Part shown: positions 23,245 through 42,855 of the stretch, one piece after another | How the letters are laid out: each line of letters opens with the position of its first letter | How positions within the stretch are numbered: position 1 is the stretch's first letter | NCBI RefSeq assembly: GCF_030317115.1 | Contig: NZ_JASZYF010000011.1 | Location: forward strand, 62,001 to 126,000 | Direction: 5' to 3' | DNA from: Variovorax gracilis | GTDB lineage: Bacteria; Pseudomonadota; Gammaproteobacteria; Burkholderiales; Burkholderiaceae_C | DNA length: 64,000 bases | Position numbers and translations under genes: made by a program | Notes under the pieces: model-generated | Databases searched by the model: none | What the model saw: only the letters and a program-made list of their open reading frames with translations | Told to the model about the DNA's origin: nothing

Positions 23245-23289
23245 GGGATGTGAGAAGTGAGGAGGTACGTGTTTTTACAACATGCGAGG

Positions 23290-23308
23290 GTCAGCACGCC
23301 GTCAGCAC
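23290..23308. promoter_or_regulatory. Tandem GTCAGCAC repeats, likely response-regulator box
   Basis: GTCAGCAC occurs at 23290-23297 and again at 23301-23308, an 11-base period. OmpR/PhoB-family regulators bind direct repeats with this period. The box lies between the divergent two-component and metal-efflux genes, 21 bases before the efflux start codon. Confidence 0.6.
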
Positions 23309-23328
23309 TCCGACGCGATAAACGGCCA

Positions 23329-24597
23329 ATGAGGATACGACAGCAGGCCGCTTGCGCGGCCTTTTTCATGGGCGCCATGGCGATCGCGCCTGCGTGGGCG
23401 CAGACCTCGCAGCGCCTGCTCACGCTCGACGAAGTGCTGCGCGCGGCGCGCGACAACCCCGATGTGATGCTCTCGCGTCAGTCGCTCGCCGCAGCTCGCG
23501 CCGATGTGCTGGCCGCCGACCATGCGCCGCCACCGCTGCTCACCGCCAAGTCCAGCACGATCGACCTGCAGAACGGTGTCGGCGGCGGCGACATCGGCCG
23601 CAAGCGGGTCGACAACTCGCTCGGCATCGACTGGACCTGGGAGCGCGGCGGCAAGCGCAGCGCCCGCACCACGGCGGCCGAACGTGCGGCCGACGCGGCG
23701 CTTGCCGACGTCGACGACGTGCAGGTGCAGCAGCTGATCGCAGCGGGCAGCGCCTTCTTCGACCTGCTCGGCGCGCAGGAGCGCATCGTCGAAGTGAACG
23801 CCGTCGAGCGCAGCGCCCAGCAGCTCTCGGATGCCTCGGCGCGGCGCGTCCAGGCCGGCGACCTGCCCGCGCAGGAAGCGGCACGCACGGCCATCGAGGC
23901 GCAGCGCAGTCGCGTCGACCTGCGTGCGGCCGAACTCGACCGCGAGCGCGCGCAGATCTCCCTCACGCAATTGCTCGGGCCGGGCGCGGCGGTCCGCGGC
24001 CTGGCTGCCAACGCGGACTGGCCCGCGCTGACCCTGCCGGCGGGCGACACCGACCTCGATGCCCTCGTCGACGCGCGCTCCGACGTGCGCGCCGCGCAGG
24101 CACGCGTCGCCTCCACCGACGCCGCACTGGCGGCTGCGCAGGCACAGCGCAGCGCCGACGTCGTCTGGGGCGTCTCGCTCGACCGCTACCCGGGCACATC
24201 CAATCGCCTGCTCGAAGTCCGCGCCGTCGTGCCGCTGCACTGGGGCTACCAGTTCGAGGGCGAGATCGGGCGCGCCCAGGCGGTCTACACGCAGGCGCAG
24301 GACGCGCTGGCCCGCAAGCGGCACGACGCGAAGCTGGAACTCCAGCGCCTGCGCGACGAGGCCGAGGCGAATGCGCGCCGGCTGCAGATCTTCGAGAAGG
24401 ACATCCTCGCCAGCGCACGCCAGGTCGCAGACAACGCCGAGCTGGCCTACCGCAAGGGCGCGATGTCGCTCAGCGACCTCCTCGATGCGCGGCGCACGCT
24501 GCGTGCCACCCAGCTTGATGCGATCGCCGCGCGCGTCGACCACGCCAAGGCCGCATTGGCCTGGCGCCTGCGAACCCAACCCATGCCCACGCCATGA
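23329..24597 (+). CDS. TolC-family outer-membrane factor (CzcC-like)
   Basis: A 422-residue outer-membrane efflux channel with a signal peptide ending APAWA near residue 24 and long coiled-coil helices in two homologous halves. It pairs with the downstream adaptor and RND pump as the CzcC component of a metal exporter. The ATG at 23329 (MRIRQQAAC) starts the signal peptide; an earlier in-frame ATG would overlap the regulatory repeats. The stop overlaps the adaptor start by 4 bases. Confidence 0.9.
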   Translation: MRIRQQAACAAFFMGAMAIAPAWAQTSQRLLTLDEVLRAARDNPDVMLSRQSLAAARADVLAADHAPPPLLTAKSSTIDLQNGVGGGDIGRKRVDNSLGIDWTWERGGKRSARTTAAERAADAALADVDDVQVQQLIAAGSAFFDLLGAQERIVEVNAVERSAQQLSDASARRVQAGDLPAQEAARTAIEAQRSRVDLRAAELDRERAQISLTQLLGPGAAVRGLAANADWPALTLPAGDTDLDALVDARSDVRAAQARVASTDAALAAAQAQRSADVVWGVSLDRYPGTSNRLLEVRAVVPLHWGYQFEGEIGRAQAVYTQAQDALARKRHDAKLELQRLRDEAEANARRLQIFEKDILASARQVADNAELAYRKGAMSLSDLLDARRTLRATQLDAIAARVDHAKAALAWRLRTQPMPTP

Positions 24598-25790
24598 ACG
24601 CCCTTCTTCCCCCGCCCGTGCGCCCGCTGCTGCTCGCCGCGCTGGTCGCGTTGACGCTCGCCGCCTGCGGCGATCGCAACGCACCGGTCGCCGAGGCCGA
24701 GCCGCCATCCCCGATCGTCCAGAACAACCAGATCCGCTTCGCGCCCGACCATCCGCAACTCAAGCTGCTCACGCTCACGGCGGCTGCGCCCGGAAAGAGC
24801 GTCCGAACCGAACTGCCCGCGCGCCTCATCTGGAACGAGGAGCGCACGCAGCGCATCTACGCGCCCTTCGCCGGCCGCGTCACTGCGATCAAGGCCGACA
24901 TCGGCCAGCCGGTGCAGCCCGGCACGGTGCTCGCCCAACTCGCGTCGCCCGATTTCGGGATCGCGCAGGCCGACACCGCGAAAGCGCAGGCCGACGTGTC
25001 GTTCGCACGCAAGAACCTGCAGCGGCAACGCGAACTCTTCGAGGCCGGCATCGTCGCGAGGAAGGACCTCGAACAGGCCGAAGCCGACGCTGCCCGCTCG
25101 CAGGCCGAGGTCGCGCGCGCCGGTGCACGCACTGCGATGTACGGCGGCGGCGGCGGCGTCAACCAGCGGCTCGCCATCCAGTCGGCCATCGCCGGCGCGG
25201 TGGTGGAGCGCAATCTCAATCCCGGCCAGGAGCTGCGGCCCGACCAGTCGGGCGTGGGCGTGCCGCCGCTCTTCGTGGTGAGCGATCCGACCTCGCTCTG
25301 GGTGCAGATCGATGCGCGCGAGTCCGAGGTCGCCACGCTGCGCCCCGGCGCGGTCTTCCAGCTCAGGGTGGCCGCGCTGCCCGGCGAGAATTTCGAGGGC
25401 TACGTGACCGCCACGGCCGACTTCATCGACCCCGCGAGCCGCACCATCAAGGTCCGCGGCATCGTGCCCAACCCCGATCGCAAGCTGAAGGCCGAGATGC
25501 TGGCGACTGCCCAGTTCGAGCGCATGCTGGGGTCGGGCGGCGTCGTGGTGCCTGCATCGGCGGTCATCCTTCGGGGTGCCCAGCATTCGGTGCTGATCCA
25601 GGTGCAGCCCGGCGTGTTCGAGCCGCGCGAAGTGCGCATCGGCTATTCGGGCCCGGCTGAGATCGTGCTCTCGAGCGGCCTGGAGGTCGGCGAGATGGTG
25701 GTGAGCGAGAACGCGCTCCTCCTTGCGCGCGAACTCCGCCAGGCGCAGGACACGGCCGCCGCCAACGTGGTCGGCACGGGCAAGCCATGA
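24594..25790 (+). CDS. RND periplasmic adaptor lipoprotein (CzcB-like)
   Basis: A 398-residue membrane-fusion protein. The N-terminal signal ends in a lipobox (LAAC, Cys about residue 23). Barrel-sandwich hybrid halves flank an alpha-hairpin (FARKNLQRQRELFEAG) and are followed by beta-barrel and membrane-proximal domains. It links the RND pump to the outer-membrane channel. It overlaps both neighbours by 4 bases. No His-rich N-terminal metal-binding tail is present. Confidence 0.92.
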   Translation: MNALLPPPVRPLLLAALVALTLAACGDRNAPVAEAEPPSPIVQNNQIRFAPDHPQLKLLTLTAAAPGKSVRTELPARLIWNEERTQRIYAPFAGRVTAIKADIGQPVQPGTVLAQLASPDFGIAQADTAKAQADVSFARKNLQRQRELFEAGIVARKDLEQAEADAARSQAEVARAGARTAMYGGGGGVNQRLAIQSAIAGAVVERNLNPGQELRPDQSGVGVPPLFVVSDPTSLWVQIDARESEVATLRPGAVFQLRVAALPGENFEGYVTATADFIDPASRTIKVRGIVPNPDRKLKAEMLATAQFERMLGSGGVVVPASAVILRGAQHSVLIQVQPGVFEPREVRIGYSGPAEIVLSSGLEVGEMVVSENALLLARELRQAQDTAAANVVGTGKP

Positions 25791-28700
25791 AGCGCCTCAT
25801 CCAGTACGCGCTCCACCAACCGCTCTTCATCGTGCTGGGCACGCTGCTGTTTGCGCTGGCGGGCGTGGTCGCCTTCAAGAATCTCTCGGTGGAAGCCTTC
25901 CCGGACGTGACGGACACGCAGGTCACGGTGATCGCGCTCTATCCGGGCCGAGCGGCGGAAGAGGTCGAGAAGCAGGTCACCTTGCCGATCGAGGTGGCGC
26001 TCTCGGGTCTGCCCAATGCCATTCGCGTGTTCTCGCACACGCAGTTCGGACTGTCGTTCACCGTCGTCACCTACGACGACGCGGCCAAGGTGCAGGACGT
26101 GCGCCAGCAGGTCAACGAGCGCCTGCGCGGCGTCGACCTGCCTGCGGGCGTGGACGCGGACATCGCACCCAACGCCACGCCGGTCGGCGAAATCATGCGC
26201 TATCGGCTACGCGGCGACGGCCTCTCGACCACGGAGCTGCGCAGCATCGAGGACTGGACCGTCGAGCGCCAGTTGCGCCAGGTCCCCGGCGTTGCCGACG
26301 TGGTGGCGATGGGCGGCTTCATCAAGCAGTACGAAGTCCAGCCCGATCTCGACAAGCTGCGCGCCTACAAGCTCAGCTTCCAGAACCTGCTCGACGCGCT
26401 GGGCCGGGGCAATTCGAACGCGGGCGGCAGCTATGTGGCGCAGGGCGCGCAGCAATACGCGATCCGAGGCATCGGCCTGCTGCGCTCGGCCGACGACATC
26501 GGCCGCATCGTGGTGTCGGCACGCGGCGCCACCCCGGTCCTCGTGCGCGACGTGGCCAGGGTGGAAGTCGGCGCGGTGCCCCGTCTGGGCACTGTGGGCC
26601 AGGACCTCGACGACGACGTGGTCACCGGTATCGTGGTCATGCGCAAGGGCGAGAACCCGAGCGTCGTGCTGAAGGGCGTGAAGGAAAAGATCGCCCAGCT
26701 GAATGCGCGCGGCATGCCGCCCGGCGTGCAGATCGTGCCCTTCTACGACCGGACCTGGCTCATGGGCAAGACGCTGGCGACCGTGTTCCGCAACCTCGTC
26801 GAAGGTGCGCTGCTGGTCTCGCTGGTGCTGTACCTGTTCCTGTCGAACCTGCGCGCCAGCCTCGCCGTCGTGGCGGTGATCCCGCTGGCACTGCTCGCGA
26901 CCTTCCTGGGCCTGAAGATCATGGGCGTGCCGGCCAACCTGCTGAGCCTGGGCGCCATGGACTTCGGCATCATCGTGGACGGCGCGGTGATCGTGATCGA
27001 GAACATCATGCATCGCCTCTCCCAGAAGCCGGAGACGATGAGCGAGGACGAACGCCGCAGCACCATCGTCGAGGCAGCCACCGAAGTCGGACGGCCCACG
27101 CTGTTCTCGATGCTGATCATCATCGCGGCGCACATCCCCATCTTTGCGCTGCAGCGGCACGAGGGGCGCATCTTCCAGCCGATGGCGCTGTCCGTCACCA
27201 CCGCGCTGATCGGCTCGCTCGTGTTCTCGCTCACCCTGGTGCCGCTGCTCGCTTTCCGCATGCTGCGGCGCAAGCTGCCGCATGGCGACAACCGCGTGGT
27301 CGCGGCCAGCAAGCGCTTCTACGCACCGGTGCTCGACTGGGCGCTGGCCCATCGCACGAAGGTGGTCGCCATCGCGCTCGGCGTGTTCGCGCTGGCGCTG
27401 GTCGCCGCCTCCCGGCTCGGCTCGGAGTTCCTGCCCGAACTCAACGAAGGCACCATCTGGGTCAACCTGCGGCTGCCGGCCAGCGTCTCCAACGACGAGG
27501 CCGCGCGCATCCTGCGCAACGTGCGCAAGGCGCTGCTCACCGTGCCGGAAGTGCGGACCACGGTCTCCAAGGCCGGCCAGCCCGAGGACGGCACCGACCC
27601 CAAGACCATCAGCATGGCGGAGATCTTCGTCGACGTGAAACCCACGGACGAATGGCGCAAGGGGCTCACCCGGGAGCAGCTCATCGACGAGATGGACCGT
27701 GCCGTCTCGGCGCTTCCCGGCATGGAGCCGTCTTTCTCTCAGCCGATCCGCGACAACGTGCTCGAGTCGATCTCCCAGATCGACGGGCAGATCGTCATCA
27801 AGGTGTCGGGCGACGACCTCGGTGTCCTGCGCCGCATCACGGAGTCGATCGAGCACGAGGTCAAGCAGGTCCCCGGCGTGTTCCGCGCAGAGATCGACCG
27901 CCTCGGCGACCTGCCGCAGCTGGTGGTCGACATCGACCGCGAGCGCGCCGCCCGCTACGGGCTCAACGTGAACGACGTGCAGGACGTGATCGAGGCCGCG
28001 CTGGCCGGCAAGTCGGCCACCTACCTCTGGGAGGGCGAGCGCAAGTTCTCGGTCGCCGTGCGTCTGCCGCAGGCGCGCCGCGCCATCGCGACGCTGGGGG
28101 CCACGCCGATCGCCACGGCCGACGGCAACTACACCACGCTCGGCGCGGTCGCCAACATCCGCGAAACGAGCGGCGCCATGAACATCGCGCGCGAGGCGGG
28201 GCGCCGCACGATGGCCATCGGCATCTTCATCAAGGACCGCGACATGGGCTCGGTGGTGAAGGACATGCAGGCGCGCGTCGCCCAGAACGTCAAGCTGCCG
28301 GCCAGCTACACCGTCGGCTGGTCGGGCGAGTTCGAGAACCAGGAGCGTGCGATGTCGCGGCTCGCGGTGGTCGTGCCGATCTCGCTGCTGCTGATCTTCG
28401 TGCTGCTCTTCGACGCCTTCAAGTCGCTCAAGATGGCCTCGCTCATCCTGCTGAACGTGCCGCTCGCGTTGATCGGGGGATTCGTGGCGCTCTATGTGCT
28501 GGATATTCCGCTGTCCGTCTCGGCGGCCATCGGCTTCATCGCGCTCTCGGGCCAGTCCGTGCTCAACGGGGTGGTGATGCTCTCGGTGTTCCAGCAACTG
28601 CGCAACGAAGGCCTCGGCGTGCTGGAGGCCGCGCGCGAAGGCTCCATGCAGCGCCTGCGCACCGTGCTGATGACCGCCCTGCTCGCCGCGCTGGGCCTGC

Positions 28701-28888
28701 TGCCCATGGCGCTGTCGCACGACATCGGCTCGGAAACCCAGCGCCCGCTCGCGATCGTGGTGATCGGCGGTCTCTTCACTGCGACGCTGCTCACGCTGGT
28801 GGTGCTGCCCGCACTCTACGTCGCCTGGTTCGCACCGAGGTCGAAATCAGCGCCGCGCACCGTGGCGGCCTCGGAGGCAGCGACATGA
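25787..28888 (+). CDS. Heavy-metal RND efflux pump (CzcA family)
   Basis: A 1033-residue RND transporter of the heavy-metal efflux group. The fourth transmembrane helix carries DFGIIVDGAVIVIEN at 392-406, with Asp392, Asp398 and Glu405, the proton-relay pattern of divalent-cation (Co/Zn/Cd/Ni) pumps rather than the monovalent CusA type. Two large periplasmic loops and twelve helices are present. It works with the upstream CzcB- and CzcC-like proteins. The stop overlaps the start of a carrier-like gene (ATGA). Confidence 0.95.
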   Translation: MKRLIQYALHQPLFIVLGTLLFALAGVVAFKNLSVEAFPDVTDTQVTVIALYPGRAAEEVEKQVTLPIEVALSGLPNAIRVFSHTQFGLSFTVVTYDDAAKVQDVRQQVNERLRGVDLPAGVDADIAPNATPVGEIMRYRLRGDGLSTTELRSIEDWTVERQLRQVPGVADVVAMGGFIKQYEVQPDLDKLRAYKLSFQNLLDALGRGNSNAGGSYVAQGAQQYAIRGIGLLRSADDIGRIVVSARGATPVLVRDVARVEVGAVPRLGTVGQDLDDDVVTGIVVMRKGENPSVVLKGVKEKIAQLNARGMPPGVQIVPFYDRTWLMGKTLATVFRNLVEGALLVSLVLYLFLSNLRASLAVVAVIPLALLATFLGLKIMGVPANLLSLGAMDFGIIVDGAVIVIENIMHRLSQKPETMSEDERRSTIVEAATEVGRPTLFSMLIIIAAHIPIFALQRHEGRIFQPMALSVTTALIGSLVFSLTLVPLLAFRMLRRKLPHGDNRVVAASKRFYAPVLDWALAHRTKVVAIALGVFALALVAASRLGSEFLPELNEGTIWVNLRLPASVSNDEAARILRNVRKALLTVPEVRTTVSKAGQPEDGTDPKTISMAEIFVDVKPTDEWRKGLTREQLIDEMDRAVSALPGMEPSFSQPIRDNVLESISQIDGQIVIKVSGDDLGVLRRITESIEHEVKQVPGVFRAEIDRLGDLPQLVVDIDRERAARYGLNVNDVQDVIEAALAGKSATYLWEGERKFSVAVRLPQARRAIATLGATPIATADGNYTTLGAVANIRETSGAMNIAREAGRRTMAIGIFIKDRDMGSVVKDMQARVAQNVKLPASYTVGWSGEFENQERAMSRLAVVVPISLLLIFVLLFDAFKSLKMASLILLNVPLALIGGFVALYVLDIPLSVSAAIGFIALSGQSVLNGVVMLSVFQQLRNEGLGVLEAAREGSMQRLRTVLMTALLAALGLLPMALSHDIGSETQRPLAIVVIGGLFTATLLTLVVLPALYVAWFAPRSKSAPRTVAASEAAT

Positions 28889-35295: not shown

Positions 35296-37677
35296 CTACC
35301 TGAAGAAATCAAGAATCCGGCTGCGTTCCTCCGGCTCCGCCGGCGCACCCACGGACGCGCCCGCCAGCGCCTCCACCGGCAACGGTGCAGGCGTGTCGAT
35401 GCCCAAGGTCGCGACACCGCGCCCCGGCCCGAAGTCGTCGAAGTACCACTCGCCTTCGACATTGAGCACGCCACCCGGCACCGCGGGCTCGCTCACGGGA
35501 ACGCCCTTCAGCGCGGTCTGCATGTAGCCGGTCCAGATCGGCAGGCTCAGGCTGCCGCCTGTCTCGCCGCGCACGCCGAGTTGGCGCGGCGTGTCGTAGC
35601 CCACCCAGGCGACGCCGACCATGGTCGGCTGGAAGCCGGCGAACCAGGTGTCGATCGAATCGTTGGTCGTGCCGGTCTTGCCGTAGAGGTCGTCGCGCTT
35701 GAGCGCCTGGCGTGCCTTCGCGGCCGTTCCGCTCTTCACCACGCTCTGCAGCAGCGAGCTCATGATGTAGGCGTTGCGCTGCGGAATGGCGCGCCTCGAT
35801 TCGTCGAGCACCGGCGGCTCGGTCTCCAGCAGGACCTTGCCCTTCATGTCGGTGACACGCGTGACCAGGTAGGGATTGACGCGATAGCCACCGTTGGCGA
35901 ACACCGAATACGCGGCCGCCATCTGCATCGGCGTGACCGAGCCGGCGCCCAGCGCCATCGGCAGGTTCGCCGGATGCTTGTCGCGGTCGAAGCCGAACTG
36001 GGTGATCCAGTCCTGCGCATAAGAGGGGCCGATGGACTGCAGCACACGGATGGTCACCGTGTTCTTCGACTGCTGCAGCGCGCGCCGCAGCGAGATCGGT
36101 CCCTCGTAGGTGTTGTCGTAGTTCTTCGGCTCCCACGGCTGCCCGCCCGCACCCGCCTCGAAGGACAGCGGCGCGTCGTTGACGACCGTGGCCGGCGAGA
36201 AGCCTTTCTCCAGCGCCGCCGAATAGATGAAGGGCTTGAAGCTCGAACCCGGTTGCCGCCACGCCTGCGAGACGTGGTTGAACTTGTTCTTGCCGTAGTC
36301 GAAGCCGCCCACCAGTGCCTTGATGGCGCCGGTGCGCGGGTCCATGCCGATGAAGGCGCCTTCGACCTCGGGCAGCTGCGTGATCTCCCAGGTGTCCTTC
36401 GGCGTCCTGGCGACGCGGATCACCGCACCGCGACGGATCCTGATGGCCGGCGCCGCCTTCTCGGACAAGCCGGACTGCGCGGGCTTCAGGCCTTCGCCCG
36501 CGATCTGCAGCGTCTCGCCGTTCGCGCGCACCGCGGTCACTTCCTTGCTGCTCGCCTGGAGGACCACGGCCGAGATCACGTCGCCGTTGTCGGGGTGGTT
36601 GGCCAGCGCGTCGTCCACCGCCTCGTCGAGTTCCTTCGGGTCGCTCGGCAGGTCCACCACCTGCTCGGGCCCGCGATAGACCTGCCGGCGCTCGTAGTCC
36701 ATGATGCCCTTGCGCAGCGACTTGTAGGCCGCCGCCTGGTCGGCCGCGACCAGCGAGGTATGAACCTTGAGGCCGCTCGTGTAGATGCTGTCGCCGTACT
36801 GTGCATGCATCATCTGGCGCACCGTCTCGGCCACGTACTCGGCATGCAGGCGGTTCGGGTCGGCGGCATCGCGCAGATGCAGTTCTTCCTTCCGGGCATC
36901 GGCCGCCTGCGCGGCGGTGATGAAGCCGGTTTCCTCCATGCGGTCGATCACGTAGAGCTGGCGCGCGCGTGCCCGGCGCGGGTTGCTCACGGGGTTGTTG
37001 GTGCCCGGCGCCTTCGGCAGCCCGGCGAGCATGGCCGCCTCGGCAATCGTGAGGTGCTGCAGCGGCTTGCCGAAGTAGGCCTCGGCCGCGGCCGCGAACC
37101 CGTAGGCGCGATTGCCCAGGTAGATCTGGTTCAGGTAGATCTCGAGGATCTGGTCCTTCGTGAGCTGCTGTTCCAGCCGCAGGGCCAGCAGGATCTCGTA
37201 GGCCTTGCGGCTCAGCGTGCGTTCCGAGCTTAGGTAGACGTTGCGCGCGACCTGCATCGTGATGGTGGATGCGCCCTGCTGCCTTCCGCCCTTGAAGCTC
37301 GCCAGCGCAGCGCGCACGAAGCCCTTGTAGTCGACGCCGCCATGGTCATAGAAGCGCGCATCCTCGACGGCGAGCACGGCGTCCTTCATCACCTGCGGAA
37401 TCTCCGCGAACGGCGTGAGATTGCGGCGCTCCTCGCCGAACTCGCCGATCAGCTCGCCTTCGGCCGAATAGACCCGCAGCGGCAGCTTGGGCCGGTAGTC
37501 GGCGAGATCGGAGACGCTGGGCAGCTTGGGGTAGATCGTGACCGCAGCGATGCCGCCGGCAATCAGCAGGACGAGCGCGCCCGTCGCGGCGGCGGCGCCG
37601 CCCCAAACGGCGATGCGTCGCAGCCGGATCGACCGGTCCGGGCGCGCGGGCCCGCTGGAGGATGATTTCTTGGTCAT
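35296..37677 (-). CDS. mrcA: Penicillin-binding protein 1A
   Basis: A bifunctional class A PBP of 793 residues. An N-terminal transmembrane helix precedes the GT51 glycosyltransferase domain (EDARFYDHGG, QGASTITMQVARN), an OB-like middle region, and the transpeptidase domain with nucleophile Ser478 in SSFK (478-481), SKN and KTGT. It polymerises and cross-links peptidoglycan in the periplasm. The ATG at 37677 (MTKKSSSSG) is chosen; an upstream ATG would add 19 residues. It is divergent from the VIT/exosortase operon. Confidence 0.93.
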   Translation of the reverse strand: MTKKSSSSGPARPDRSIRLRRIAVWGGAAAATGALVLLIAGGIAAVTIYPKLPSVSDLADYRPKLPLRVYSAEGELIGEFGEERRNLTPFAEIPQVMKDAVLAVEDARFYDHGGVDYKGFVRAALASFKGGRQQGASTITMQVARNVYLSSERTLSRKAYEILLALRLEQQLTKDQILEIYLNQIYLGNRAYGFAAAAEAYFGKPLQHLTIAEAAMLAGLPKAPGTNNPVSNPRRARARQLYVIDRMEETGFITAAQAADARKEELHLRDAADPNRLHAEYVAETVRQMMHAQYGDSIYTSGLKVHTSLVAADQAAAYKSLRKGIMDYERRQVYRGPEQVVDLPSDPKELDEAVDDALANHPDNGDVISAVVLQASSKEVTAVRANGETLQIAGEGLKPAQSGLSEKAAPAIRIRRGAVIRVARTPKDTWEITQLPEVEGAFIGMDPRTGAIKALVGGFDYGKNKFNHVSQAWRQPGSSFKPFIYSAALEKGFSPATVVNDAPLSFEAGAGGQPWEPKNYDNTYEGPISLRRALQQSKNTVTIRVLQSIGPSYAQDWITQFGFDRDKHPANLPMALGAGSVTPMQMAAAYSVFANGGYRVNPYLVTRVTDMKGKVLLETEPPVLDESRRAIPQRNAYIMSSLLQSVVKSGTAAKARQALKRDDLYGKTGTTNDSIDTWFAGFQPTMVGVAWVGYDTPRQLGVRGETGGSLSLPIWTGYMQTALKGVPVSEPAVPGGVLNVEGEWYFDDFGPGRGVATLGIDTPAPLPVEALAGASVGAPAEPEERSRILDFFR

Positions 37678-37739
37678 GGCAAATGAGGGGTCGACGCGGG
37701 AGAAAACGAGGGAAATCCCATGGTGGATGGGCATACTTT

Positions 37740-38002: not shown

Positions 38003-40069
38003 ATGGAAAGCTCCATACCCCGCCCGGGCCGCTGGCTCTGGCTCGCCACGCTGGGCCTCGCGGCCACCGGCTTCGTCACGCTGATCGCGCGGCCGGCGCA
38101 TGCGCAGGAAGCGCCGGGCCCGAGACTGAAGACCGAGAGCCCCTACTTCTTCGTGAAAAGCGACGACCCGGAAACGGACCGCCTGCCGCTCAAGGGCACG
38201 GAAGTGGACGTGAAGATCTCGGGCGTCATCGCCGACGTCACCGTCACGCAGACCTACCGCAACGAAGGGAAGCGCGCCATCGAGGCCCGGTACGTGTTCC
38301 CCGGCTCGACCCGGGCGGCGGTCGGCGGCCTCAACGTGCGGCTGGCCGACCGCCTCATCACCGCGCAGATCCGCCAGAAGGAGCAGGCGCGCATCGAATA
38401 CGACAACGCGAAGAAGGAAGGCAAGACCGCCGCGCTGCTCGAACAGCACCTGCCCAACGTGTTCCAGATGAACGTCGCCAACATCCTGCCGGGCGACGAC
38501 TTGAAAGTGCAGCTGCGCTACACCGAGCTGCTCGTGCCGCAGGGCGGCAACTACCAGTTCGTCTTCCCGACGGTGGTGGGGCCGCGCTACAACAGCCCGC
38601 GGTCCGAGAACGCGCAAGCGGCCTGGGTCGCGCAGCCGGTGCTTCGGGCCGACGTCGCACCCGGCACCAGCTTCAAGCTCAAGGTCGCGCTGGACGCGCC
38701 GCTCGGCATCCGGGAAGTCCGCTCGCTCACGCACGCCATCGACGTACGCCAGCGCGACGGCAACGAGCATGCCGACATCGCGCTCGCCCGCAGCAGCGAG
38801 CCTTCGGACAACCGCGATTTCGTGCTCGACTACCGGCTCGCCGGCGAGCGCATCGAGTCGGGCCTGATGCTCTACATGGGCCACGGCGACAACGCCGAGA
38901 ACTTCTTCCTCGCGATGGTCGAGCCGCCGAAGTCGGTGGCCGCGAGCGCCATCTCGCCGCGCGACTACATCTTCGTGGTGGACATCTCGGGCTCGATGCA
39001 CGGCTTTCCGCTCGACACGGCCAAGGTCGTGCTGGAGCGGCTCATTGGCGGCCTGCGACCCAGCGACACCTTCAACGTGCTGCTGTTCTCGGGCAGCAAC
39101 CGCATGCTCTCGCCGCACTCGGTGCCGGCTACGCGCGCCAACATCGCTCAGGCACTCGCCACGATCCGCAACTACAACGGCAGCGGCAGCACGGAGCTGA
39201 TTCCGGCACTGAAACGCGCCTATGCCGAGCCCAAGGCCGACGAGGTCTCGCGCACAATCGTGGTGGTGAGCGACGGCTACGTCACGGTGGAGCGCGAAGC
39301 CTTTGAGCTGGTGCGCAAGAACCTCTCCAAGGCCAACGTGTTCGCCTTCGGCATCGGCTCCTCGGTCAACCGGCACCTGATGGAAGGCCTGGCCCGCGCC
39401 GGCATGGGCGAGCCCTTCATCATCACCGACCCCGTGCAGGCGCCCGAGCAGGCTGCGCGCTTCCGCAGGATGATCGAATCGCCCGTGCTCACGAGCGTGA
39501 AGGCGCGCTTCGAAGGCCTCGATGTGTACGACGTGGAGCCCGCGGCACTGCCCGACGTGCTCGGCGAGCGGCCGGTGATCGTGTTCGGCAAGTGGCGCGG
39601 CGAAGCCAAGGGCCGTGTCGTGATCGAGGGCCGCGGCGCCGAGGGTCCGTACCGGCAGGAACTCAAGGTGGATCCGCACATGCTCCAGGATGCCGCCGCG
39701 CTGCGCAGCCTGTGGGCGCGCCATCGCATCGCGAGCCTGAGCGACCAGGAAGCGCTGGAAGGCGGCGACTCGCTCCAGCAACGCATCACCGATCTCGGCC
39801 TGCGCTACAGCCTGCTCACGCAGTACACGAGCTTCATCGCCGTGGACCAGGTGGTTCGCAACGCGGCGCCGCAGAACAGCGTCGGCGTCGATCAGCCGGC
39901 GCCACTGCCCAAGGGCGTCAGCGAGCTGGCTGTAGCCCACAGCCTGGGTGCCGAGGTGCCGAGCACGCCGGAGCCCGAGACGCTGGGCGCGATCGCGGTG
40001 GTGCTTTCGATGCTGGCGATGCTGCGCCGTCGCGCGCGCCGCAACGATCCACGCCGCCTCACGTCCTGA
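38003..40069 (+). CDS. VIT/vWA surface protein with PEP-like sorting signal
   Basis: A 688-residue protein of the marine proteobacterial sortase target type (TIGR03788-like). The signal peptide ends near AHA at about residue 35. A VIT domain (about 45-180) precedes a vWA domain with the MIDAS motif DISGS near 327. The C-terminus carries PEPETLG at 656-662, a hydrophobic helix and an Arg cluster (RRRARR), the three parts of a PEP-CTERM-like signal. The next gene encodes an exosortase, so it is probably its substrate. The ATG at 38003 follows AAGAGGACC. Confidence 0.9.
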   Translation: MESSIPRPGRWLWLATLGLAATGFVTLIARPAHAQEAPGPRLKTESPYFFVKSDDPETDRLPLKGTEVDVKISGVIADVTVTQTYRNEGKRAIEARYVFPGSTRAAVGGLNVRLADRLITAQIRQKEQARIEYDNAKKEGKTAALLEQHLPNVFQMNVANILPGDDLKVQLRYTELLVPQGGNYQFVFPTVVGPRYNSPRSENAQAAWVAQPVLRADVAPGTSFKLKVALDAPLGIREVRSLTHAIDVRQRDGNEHADIALARSSEPSDNRDFVLDYRLAGERIESGLMLYMGHGDNAENFFLAMVEPPKSVAASAISPRDYIFVVDISGSMHGFPLDTAKVVLERLIGGLRPSDTFNVLLFSGSNRMLSPHSVPATRANIAQALATIRNYNGSGSTELIPALKRAYAEPKADEVSRTIVVVSDGYVTVEREAFELVRKNLSKANVFAFGIGSSVNRHLMEGLARAGMGEPFIITDPVQAPEQAARFRRMIESPVLTSVKARFEGLDVYDVEPAALPDVLGERPVIVFGKWRGEAKGRVVIEGRGAEGPYRQELKVDPHMLQDAAALRSLWARHRIASLSDQEALEGGDSLQQRITDLGLRYSLLTQYTSFIAVDQVVRNAAPQNSVGVDQPAPLPKGVSELAVAHSLGAEVPSTPEPETLGAIAVVLSMLAMLRRRARRNDPRRLTS

Positions 40070-40081
40070 GGACGCATCGCC

Positions 40082-41014
40082 ATGTCACTTGCTCTCCTGG
40101 CACGAACGCATCCCCGGGTCATCGACTGGGGCATCCATCTCGACCGCGCGCCGGCTGCCGGATGGCTCGGCCTGCAAGCCGCCGCGCTGACGCCTGCATG
40201 GATCTGGATGGCGCAACGAATGCGCGACGGCTCCGATGATCCGCTCGGGCTGCTCGCTCTCGCCGCGCTGGCCACGCTCACCTGGACGCTGCGCCGCGAG
40301 CTGCGGCCTGCACCGCGTCTGGGCTGGCTTGCGCTGGCGAGCGTCGGCACGCTGGCCGCCACGGTGCTGCGTACGGGATTCGGCCCGCTGCCTTCGGCGC
40401 CGCCGCTCGCCGCAAGCCTGCTGGCGGTGCTGGCCTTCGCCTGCTGCCTGCTCGCCTTCCTGCCCCGGCGCGCGGCCGCGTTCCCTGTGATGGGCCTCGC
40501 CGTGCTCGCGCTGCCGCTGCTGTCCTCGCTCCAGTTCTACGCGGGCTATCCGCTGCGCGTGATCACGGCGGAAGCCAGCCGATGGCTGCTCGCGCCCGGC
40601 TTCAGCGTGTCGCGCGAAGGCAGCAGCCTGCTGGTCGATAGGCAAATGGTCATCGTCGATGCACCCTGCTCCGGCGTGCAGATGGCGTGGCTCGGCTACT
40701 TCACGGCCTGCGTCGTGGCGCTCTGGGCCGGACGCAACGATCGCGGCTTTCTTTCGCGGCTGCCGGTGGTCGGCCTGCTGGTGCTGGGCGGCAACATCGT
40801 GCGCAACAGCGTACTGGTCGCGCTCGAAGCCGCAGGGCACGCGCCCGCACCGTGGTTGCACGACGCATTCGGCCTCGTGCTGCTCGCGCTGGTGTGCGGC
40901 GGCATCGCGCGGGTCATGGCACGCGACCCAGGTTCCCGGCCAGGCGCAGGGACCGCCGCCATCCCGGGCCTGATCACGTCTGCAGGAGGCCGCCGTGTCG
41001 ATACCGCTCTTTGA
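40082..41014 (+). CDS. Dedicated exosortase
   Basis: A 310-residue inner-membrane protein with about eight helices. The exosortase triad is visible: Cys196 in DAPCSGVQM, Arg241 in NIVRNSV and His260 in LHDAFGL. Exosortases cleave PEP-CTERM-type signals and are thought to transfer the protein to a carrier or envelope component. It starts 12 bases after the VIT gene, whose C-terminus fits a substrate. The stop lies 20 bases inside the EpsI-like gene. No EPS cluster or PEP-CTERM array is in the window, so it appears single-target. Confidence 0.9.
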   Translation: MSLALLARTHPRVIDWGIHLDRAPAAGWLGLQAAALTPAWIWMAQRMRDGSDDPLGLLALAALATLTWTLRRELRPAPRLGWLALASVGTLAATVLRTGFGPLPSAPPLAASLLAVLAFACCLLAFLPRRAAAFPVMGLAVLALPLLSSLQFYAGYPLRVITAEASRWLLAPGFSVSREGSSLLVDRQMVIVDAPCSGVQMAWLGYFTACVVALWAGRNDRGFLSRLPVVGLLVLGGNIVRNSVLVALEAAGHAPAPWLHDAFGLVLLALVCGGIARVMARDPGSRPGAGTAAIPGLITSAGGRRVDTAL

Positions 41015-41567
41015 TCGCTGGCTCGCCAATCGCTTTGTCAACCGCATTGCGCACAAGGCGGTTTTCGCGTTGGTCATGCTGCTGTGCGTGATCTGGTCCG
41101 CGGCCTCCGCGCTGCACCGGCCGCCCGCGCCCGCCGCATCGGCTGTCTTCGAGGAATGGCCCAGCGAGTGGGACGGCGTGCCACTGCGTCCCCTGGCACT
41201 CAGCGAAGTGGAGCAGCGCTTCGCACAGCAGTTTCCCGGCGCGATCGCGCGCATGACCGATGGCGAGCAGATGCTGGTGCTTCGCCAGGTCCACGCACCC
41301 ACCCGCATGCTGCACCCCGCCGCCGATTGCTACCGCGCACTCGGCTACGGCATAGCCCAGGCGCGCCTGGAGCGCGACGTGCATGCCCGCCTGTGGCGCT
41401 GTTTCGTCGCCGAGCGCCAAGGTGCGCAAAAAATGCGGGTCTGCGAGCGCATCGTCGATGCCCGAGGGGACGCTTTCACCGACACTTCAGCCTGGTACTG
41501 GGCGGCAGCCAGCGGTCGGTCGAGCGGACCATGGCAAGCTGTGACCCTGGCGAGACGGATCGAGTGA
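40995..41567 (+). CDS. Exosortase-associated EpsI-like protein
   Basis: A 190-residue protein with one N-terminal transmembrane segment (VFALVMLLCVIWSAASAL) and a periplasmic domain with HPAADCYRALGY, resembling EpsI/DUF3485 proteins that accompany exosortases. It starts with GTG at 40995, preceded by AGGAGG, and overlaps the exosortase end by 20 bases. Its partner role is unknown. Confidence 0.75.
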   Translation: MSIPLFDRWLANRFVNRIAHKAVFALVMLLCVIWSAASALHRPPAPAASAVFEEWPSEWDGVPLRPLALSEVEQRFAQQFPGAIARMTDGEQMLVLRQVHAPTRMLHPAADCYRALGYGIAQARLERDVHARLWRCFVAERQGAQKMRVCERIVDARGDAFTDTSAWYWAAASGRSSGPWQAVTLARRIE

Positions 41568-41574
41568 GAGAGAC

Positions 41575-42855
41575 TTGTTAAAAAAAGCGCTGCTTTACCT
41601 GCTTTTCGCGACCCTGGCCCTGGTGCTCACGGCGGGCGTCGCCGCGTATCTGATCGTGCGGCTGGCCCTGGCGCCCGGCCCTGACGAATGGCCTGCCCGC
41701 GTCAAGATCGGCCCCGCATCCATCGACATCGGCGTGCCGACCGCCATCCGGCTGGCCACCTCCTCCTGGTTCGCGCCGTGGGTGGCAGGCCGTACCGTGC
41801 AGACCGACTTCGGCCCGGTGCTCTTCGGGTGGAACGAGCCCACCGCCACCCTCGAACTGCAATGCGCGCCCTGCAGCGCCAAGGTGCCCGCACTCGGCGA
41901 GGCGCCCATCCGGCTCGAACGCCTGCGGGCCACGGTACGCCGCGATGGCGGTGCGCTCGGCGGCACCCTCGAAGCCTTCCCGCCCGGGCCCATGCCGGCT
42001 GCCACGGACGGCGCGAGCGACGGGGTGCTGCGCGCGCAGTGGAGCGGCCGCCTCACGCAGAAAGCCCTGCAACTCAACATCAACGCGGCGGACGCGCCCA
42101 TCACGCGCTGGTATGCCGTGCTGGCGCCCGGCCTTCCCGAACTGCAGCGAGGGCGCATCGGCGGCACCTTCGGGCTGCACGCCCAGGTTGCGCTGCCCGC
42201 CCGCACCTTCACGCTGCAGCCCCGCATCTCGCAATTCACGGTCGAAGGCCTGGGCACCGAGGCGATGGTCAATGCACGCAGCAGCTGCGGCGCACCAAGC
42301 CGGCTCACGAACGAGAGCTGGCTCGCCCGATCCGTCATCGCGGCGGAAGACCAGCGCTTCTTCTCCCATCCCGGCTACGACCTCGCCGAACTCGTACCCT
42401 CGCTCGAAAGCAACCAGAAGGCGGGCCAGGTGGAGCGCGGCGCAAGCACCCTCACGCAGCAGCTCGCCAAGCTGCTCGTGACCGGCGGCGAACGCAGCGC
42501 CGACCGCAAGCTGCGCGAACTGCTCTACGCAGTCGAGATGGAACAGACGCTGGGCAAGGCCCGCATCCTCCAGCTCTACCTGGACAACGCACCCTGGGGC
42601 CCCGACCTGTGCGGTGCCGAAGCCGCCGCGCGCCGCTACTTCAAGCGCGGCGCCCGAAATCTCGAACCGGCCCAGGCCGTCTGGCTCGCGGCGATGCTGC
42701 ACAACCCCAACGTCGCGGTCGAGAAGTGGCAGCGCGACGGCAACATTGATGCCGCGCGGGCCAAGACGGTCGCCGAAGGGGTGCGCGGGATCACCAAGCC
42801 GCAGCGTGACGCCCTGCTCCGGAATGTGGCGACTGCGCGCTTCGCTCCGCCCTGA
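41575..42855 (+). CDS. GT51 peptidoglycan glycosyltransferase with AsmA-like N-terminus
   Basis: A 426-residue membrane protein. After an N-terminal helix, about 215 residues of beta-rich sequence resemble an AsmA-type domain. The C-terminal part (about 240-400) is a GT51 transglycosylase: catalytic Glu258 in AAEDQRFFSHPG and RGASTLTQQLAKLL. There is no transpeptidase domain. It starts at a TTG (41575), 7 bases after the EpsI-like stop, so it belongs to the exosortase operon. It would add glycan strands, possibly where the VIT protein is placed. Confidence 0.87.
   Translation: MLKKALLYLLFATLALVLTAGVAAYLIVRLALAPGPDEWPARVKIGPASIDIGVPTAIRLATSSWFAPWVAGRTVQTDFGPVLFGWNEPTATLELQCAPCSAKVPALGEAPIRLERLRATVRRDGGALGGTLEAFPPGPMPAATDGASDGVLRAQWSGRLTQKALQLNINAADAPITRWYAVLAPGLPELQRGRIGGTFGLHAQVALPARTFTLQPRISQFTVEGLGTEAMVNARSSCGAPSRLTNESWLARSVIAAEDQRFFSHPGYDLAELVPSLESNQKAGQVERGASTLTQQLAKLLVTGGERSADRKLRELLYAVEMEQTLGKARILQLYLDNAPWGPDLCGAEAAARRYFKRGARNLEPAQAVWLAAMLHNPNVAVEKWQRDGNIDAARAKTVAEGVRGITKPQRDALLRNVATARFAPP

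Follow-up and report, generated by a model that had tools for sequence, protein, structure and literature searches.

Does an exosortase encoded beside a peptidoglycan glycosyltransferase sort its substrate in connection with peptidoglycan synthesis? The question is raised by a locus of the soil bacterium Variovorax gracilis within a stretch of 64,000 nucleotides (contig C8:62001-126000 of the 7.78-Mb host genome, hereafter the window), where four successive genes of the plus strand, as read from its open reading frames (ORFs), encode a VIT/vWA protein, exosortase Q (XrtQ), an EpsI-like protein and a glycosyltransferase of family GT51. We put at about 0.5 the probability that they form an exosortase system dedicated to one substrate and linked to peptidoglycan through a GT51 that would act together with the sorting step. 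A preliminary description of the same DNA had placed these four genes in a row, and all four ORFs were indeed found, tightly packed and conserved. Their positions in the window, all on the plus strand, are as follows:

38003..40069, plus strand: VIT/vWA protein (PF08487, 114 bits; VWA_3, 65.2 bits), presumed XrtQ substrate
39965..40036, plus strand: PEP-CTERM-like signal (TIGR02595), made up of STPEP, a hydrophobic helix and an arginine cluster
40082..41014, plus strand: xrtQ, exosortase Q (NF012182, 392.8 bits, cut-off 270)
40667, 40802 and 40859, plus strand: codons of the XrtQ triad Cys196, Arg241 and His260, invariant in 18/18 sequences
40995..41567, plus strand: EpsI-like protein (match to the XrtT C-terminal region, 41.3 bits), overlapping xrtQ by 20 bases
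41575..42855, plus strand: GT51 peptidoglycan glycosyltransferase with an N-terminal helix and a private beta domain (Transgly, PF00912, 144.8 bits)
42346 and 42517, plus strand: codons of GT51 Glu258 and Glu315, invariant among relatives

Components of the exosortase Q locus

The assignment of the sorting enzyme to exosortase Q was accompanied by an Exosortase_EpsH domain (91 bits), and Variovorax homologues already carry this NCBI name, with XrtQ identities of 92 and 90% to the closest named loci, both from Variovorax. The motifs Cys-x-Gly, Asn-x-x-Arg and His-x-x-x-Gly (C196/G198, N238/R241 and H260/G264) were invariant throughout the 18-row alignment (A1), in agreement with the triad read earlier from the sequence; the motif definition and the triad argument follow the accessible part of PMC1569441. 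No more than one exosortase was found in the host genome.

The presumed substrate starts, as read by eye, with a signal-peptide-like segment (a longer frame with a TTG start is possible from 37967) and closes with STPEP, followed by a membrane helix and then arginines. By model, this C-terminal signal is weak: TIGR02595 gave 16.0 bits in the protein scan, exactly the cut-off of 16, and 22.1 bits in the genome search, while Pfam PEP-CTERM (PF07589), for which the cut-off is 20.7, gave no more than 10.1 bits. It is, however, backed by conservation, as the motif [PSTAG][STG][TA]PE[PAQ] was found close to the C-terminus in 43 of the 46 VIT frames of the family sample described below. The three remaining frames had PATPEP (L053), PSTPEQ with a longer tail (L082) or a run-on frame (L067). 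Among 80 named loci, the C-terminal motif was present in all 79 with a VIT frame (three with PATPEP included), the other one, L109, having no such frame. The host genome encodes a single VIT protein and contains six matches to the PEP-CTERM model (E up to 10), of which the window protein was the highest (22.1 bits, the next reaching 16.8). Only in its frame is an intact signal soon followed by the stop (34 residues, counted from the hit start); four of the other frames run for at least 66 residues, and one is broken by a stop. With one exosortase, one VIT protein and one convincing C-terminal PEP signal, the single-target character proposed earlier held in this genome, and the VIT/vWA protein is the apparent sole XrtQ substrate there, although the model spans only 24 positions, so that a second target of divergent sequence might escape it.

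We labelled the third protein EpsI-like because it matches the C-terminal part of XrtT (model positions 287-446) and because its gene lies in one frame with xrtQ in 6 loci; the EpsI model TIGR02914 was not among its profile matches. Its predicted structure consists of one long N-terminal helix and an alpha/beta domain (predicted local distance difference test score, 87.2). The corresponding alignment (A4) has 23 rows from a subset of loci, L056 having been dropped on account of a stop codon.

In the GT51, both of the residues that we take to be the catalytic glutamates are present, and they align to those of Aquifex PBP1A. No transpeptidase domain was found. In this, the protein resembles MtgA (TIGR02070), also a GT51 without a transpeptidase domain, but it scored below the cut-off of that model (138.4 versus 182.65 bits) and has an additional N-terminal beta domain of ca. 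200 residues (about 35-235), located behind the N-terminal helix. The N-terminal region had neither a Pfam match nor a strong fold match; of the GT51 fused to an AsmA-like region that had been described, the glycosyltransferase stands, and the AsmA-like label found no support. Cys238 (42286-42288) and Cys346 (42610-42612) are kept or lost jointly in relatives and may form a disulfide. The GT51 alignments comprised 29 (A2) and 68 (A6) rows, and the query for the N-terminal region was built from 28 rows. There are four further GT51 genes in the host genome.

Conservation across the family, the order and the class

We studied the distribution of the locus in a family sample of 299 genomes (the host included), searched with XrtQ and with the GT51 N-terminal region. 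The best 8 to 14 candidates per genome were scored, and misses hold only at that depth; GT51 exceptions were rechecked with 60 to 150 candidates per genome. XrtQ was detected in 49 genomes. Besides that of the window, 48 genomes are represented by 49 stretches around XrtQ, as one genome is split over two contigs. The VIT, xrtQ, epsI and GT51 genes followed one another in the same order in 44 of these 49 stretches, with median intergenic gaps of 11, -17 and 3 bases; three of the 44 hold a partial or run-on gene (in L070 the VIT query matched only from residue 480, in L067 the VIT frame overruns, and L076 runs into the end of its contig on either side). L084 and L086 are the two contig ends of a single genome and share all four genes between them. 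Altogether, 46 of the 49 XrtQ genomes have the four genes: the host, those of the 44 stretches and the contig-split one. Along similar lines, the GT51 N-terminal domain was found in 48 of the 299 genomes, 46 of them with XrtQ (Fisher p 6e-48, a value not corrected for kinship). A lack of linkage in neighbouring genomes was one of the outcomes set in advance as refuting the preliminary description; the linkage found was strong.

The complete gene order was also present in 73 of the 80 named loci. L109 begins within the module, and L122 ends within it and has its GT51 elsewhere in the genome. In L128, L142, L147 and L150, the GT51 gene is not adjacent to epsI, yet it was present in all four genomes, ca. 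9-11 kb past xrtQ on a contig of matching length in L128, L142 and L150 and on another contig in the case of L147. Beyond epsI, these four share similar DNA (81-83% identity over at least 3.4 kb), and the displaced GT51 is still followed by the ATP-binding cassette (ABC) gene found after the GT51 in the window, which makes one ancestral insertion the simplest account. By eye, the insert (L128:8479-14882) contains an AraC-type regulator and a branched-chain amino-acid-type transporter operon, likewise in L142, L147 and L150.

In an order-wide sample, again with 8 to 14 candidates scored per genome, the GT51 N-terminal domain was found in 3 of 200 genomes (the host, G020 and G476), all with the module. 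Two of them have XrtQ above the cut-off; the third, G476, belongs to another family, and its complete four-gene module includes a more distant XrtQ (208 bits). In a class-wide sample of 229 genomes, in which up to 13 candidates per genome were scored, the only GT51 of this type was that of the window.

On its other side, the module has a divergent neighbour that lies outside the conserved part:

35296..37734, minus strand: penicillin-binding protein of the PBP1A type (PBP_1a_fam, 617.7 bits)

This gene adjoins the module in 70 of the 80 named loci, mostly Variovorax, and was strongly matched in only 6 of the 49 wider family stretches (6-kb flanks); it is a module neighbour in near relatives only. 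Farther away, positions 23257-28888 of the window (plus strand) encode a resistance-nodulation-division efflux system with an outer membrane factor, a fusion protein and an AcrB-type pump.

Relatives of the substrate and known sorting systems

The VIT/vWA protein had been likened to the targets of class GN sortases, and this kinship was borne out, with 419.5 bits to TIGR03788, though below the cut-off of 551.65. The two systems (TIGR03784 for the sortase) have in common a homologous VIT/vWA target, a C-terminal helix and an adjacent sorting enzyme, but the enzymes are unrelated, and the window protein has STPEP instead of a TAT-type signal. In gammaproteobacterial VIT frames, TAT was found close to the end in 22 of 28 (14 of the 22 with PxTAT), and the four neighbours of these genes that were scanned all had class GN sortase as best match, three above the cut-off. 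Curated sortase-target VIT proteins were present in 34 of the 229 class-sample genomes, where this GT51 was confined to the host.

We built a VIT tree of 55 rows, namely 20 XrtQ targets (the window protein and 19 of the 46 family frames), 28 of 30 gammaproteobacterial loci and 7 others; the VIT relatives of L213, L218, L219, L220 and L222, sought by motif, were not picked up. Sortase targets formed one clade (100/100) and family XrtQ targets another (99/99), in a tree with a long-branch warning (L253, L254 and L260), uneven composition and a root placed for drawing only. A single paralogue with a plain C-terminal helix was nested within the XrtQ-target clade (L217:7892-10273, plus strand, genome G126); it adjoins ORFs that by eye resemble a sigma factor and a regulator. 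The nearest sequence outside this clade was the G476 protein, followed by a pair including L216. The C-terminus of L216 consists of an OmpA-type domain (PF00691, 64.5 bits), as does that of L259 (45.8 bits), deeper in the tree. L216:7777-10140 (plus strand) is a second VIT/vWA protein of its genome, G015, which also has an XrtQ module. OmpA-type domains bind peptidoglycan, as family names also reflect, and their presence at the end of VIT/vWA relatives suggests, indirectly, that proteins of this kind have to be attached to the wall.

By their names, the XrtN system (TIGR04477) and MSEP-CTERM (TIGR04286) families likewise combine a VIT protein with an exosortase; neither was among the 7 families that matched the window protein (E up to 1). 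Given that TIGR04477 is entitled "XrtN system VIT domain-containing protein," such pairing alone is not new, and XrtQ itself is a known NCBI family. The system had been presented as apparently distinct and little described; this does not hold for the VIT-exosortase pair but may hold for the GT51 partner. The enzyme itself belongs to NF012182 (above the cut-off), and no link of that family to a GT51 came up in the papers searched. That literature, with few subscription papers covered, yielded no paper on XrtQ and none that mentions exosortase together with "VIT domain." The longer VIT name does occur beside exosortase in PMC6168606, listed as a paper on biotin synthesis in Riemerella, and Variovorax beside exosortase in PMC9850573. 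Among the matches listed (25 of 39), "peptidoglycan glycosyltransferase" was in none. A parallel in gene arrangement is archaeosortase ArtA with PssA/PssD, where, according to the accessible text of PMC7157517, the sorting enzyme also adjoins genes of the acceptor pathway, and the artA neighbours led to enzymes required for lipid attachment. There, the acceptor genes are for lipid; here, the neighbour is a peptidoglycan glycosyltransferase.

Sorting and peptidoglycan synthesis

From gene content and active-site conservation, we infer the following sequence of events. The VIT/vWA protein would be exported, with its C-terminal helix retaining it in the inner membrane. Cleavage by XrtQ at STPEP would proceed by way of a Cys thioester, and the protein would then be transferred to an acceptor, possibly lipid II or nascent glycan, with assistance of the EpsI-like protein. 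The GT51, a single-function enzyme whose motifs are intact and whose N-terminal domain is private to it, most likely works with sorting on the periplasmic face; by polymerising lipid II at the handover, it may fix the VIT/vWA protein to new peptidoglycan or display the protein through it. An intact GT51 that co-occurs with XrtQ makes the coupling of display to peptidoglycan growth, as suggested earlier, a plausible inference. In its most specific form, the acceptor to which XrtQ covalently joins the VIT/vWA protein would be lipid II or nascent glycan, with the GT51 polymerising the loaded precursor. We offer this version tentatively and consider it unlikely; sortases hand proteins to lipid II (excerpt of PMC1569441), and if true, it would give Gram-negative bacteria an exosortase-based equivalent of the sortase-lipid II route of Gram-positive ones.

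Several observations weigh against a system in which sorting and this GT51 belong together. Even after the deeper recheck, three family genomes had XrtQ without this GT51 (G027, G035 and G148). The loci of G148 and G027 look degraded, since in one (L083) xrtQ stands at the contig start with an epsI match of 32 residues and no GT51, and in the other (L085) xrtQ is truncated and the epsI match covers 39 residues; in G035 (L069), VIT, xrtQ and epsI look intact. L140 showed no GT51 in the 441 bases between epsI and the contig end. Two genomes, G129 and G266, have the GT51 without an XrtQ or VIT match; G266 is 84% complete and its GT51 lies on a 4,134-base contig, and G129 is a real exception. In another family, G330 and G374 have XrtQ-like (ca. 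128 bits) and EpsI-like proteins without such a GT51, and in G330 they are accompanied by a VIT protein whose best match is the XrtN-system family (114.6 bits, short of the cut-off of 250). The GT51 is, then, not strictly required.

Some of these loci have features of their own. At the place expected for the GT51, L069:3989-5434 (plus strand) is a reverse-transcriptase-like ORF (YADD, by eye) running towards epsI. The lone GT51 of G129 (L214:8296-9588, plus strand) is downstream of ORFs resembling, by eye, a two-component system. The G330 locus is L212:6968-10213 (minus strand), with an XrtQ-like match of 129 bits and no GT51 match nearby.

The existence of exosortase modules without this GT51 agrees with ordinary PEP-CTERM display, in which XrtQ would release the VIT/vWA protein or attach it to lipid, outer membrane or exopolysaccharide, with the part of the GT51 limited to local wall remodelling for passage or assembly. 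Such display is also favoured by the model, put forward as a hypothesis in the accessible part of a cyanobacterial study (PMC12188702), that PEP-CTERM proteins are located at the outer membrane or in polysaccharide, and by the attachment of archaeosortase substrates to lipid (PMC7157517, in the part available). Yet display alone would leave unexplained why 46 of the 48 genomes with this private GT51 also have XrtQ, and we regard it as possible, if somewhat unlikely. XrtQ might, at the other extreme, merely trim the VIT/vWA protein and release it to the periplasm without transfer. For the enzyme's activity, the evidence presented here is the conservation of the cysteine, arginine and histidine, which trimming would also accommodate, but several relatives keep a C-terminal device (sortase-type signal, OmpA-type domain or plain helix), pointing to a need for fixing, and trimming appears very improbable.

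The GT51 could also be a peptidoglycan synthase that is co-transcribed but serves a purpose outside sorting, for example under the same stress. Its presence in G129 and G266 is in line with this, as are the four other GT51 genes of the host, which imply that the activity is not unique. Against such independence, the gene was kept in 4 of 4 named genomes with an insert between epsI and GT51 (the shared insert counting as one event) and was not found, among up to 13 candidates scored per genome, in the other class-sample genomes, including the 34 with sortase-target VIT proteins, so that a separate role seems quite unlikely. The dedicated system with a GT51 acting alongside sorting is the reading that we retain, at the probability given above.

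Within one VIT/vWA family, the C-terminal devices thus range from a TAT-type sortase signal to an STPEP exosortase signal, an OmpA-type domain or a plain helix. The final anchor of exosortase substrates is still a hypothesis in the accessible part of PMC12188702, and an operon with one enzyme, one substrate and its own GT51 narrows the question of the anchor down to one protein, with an acceptor that can be tested for.

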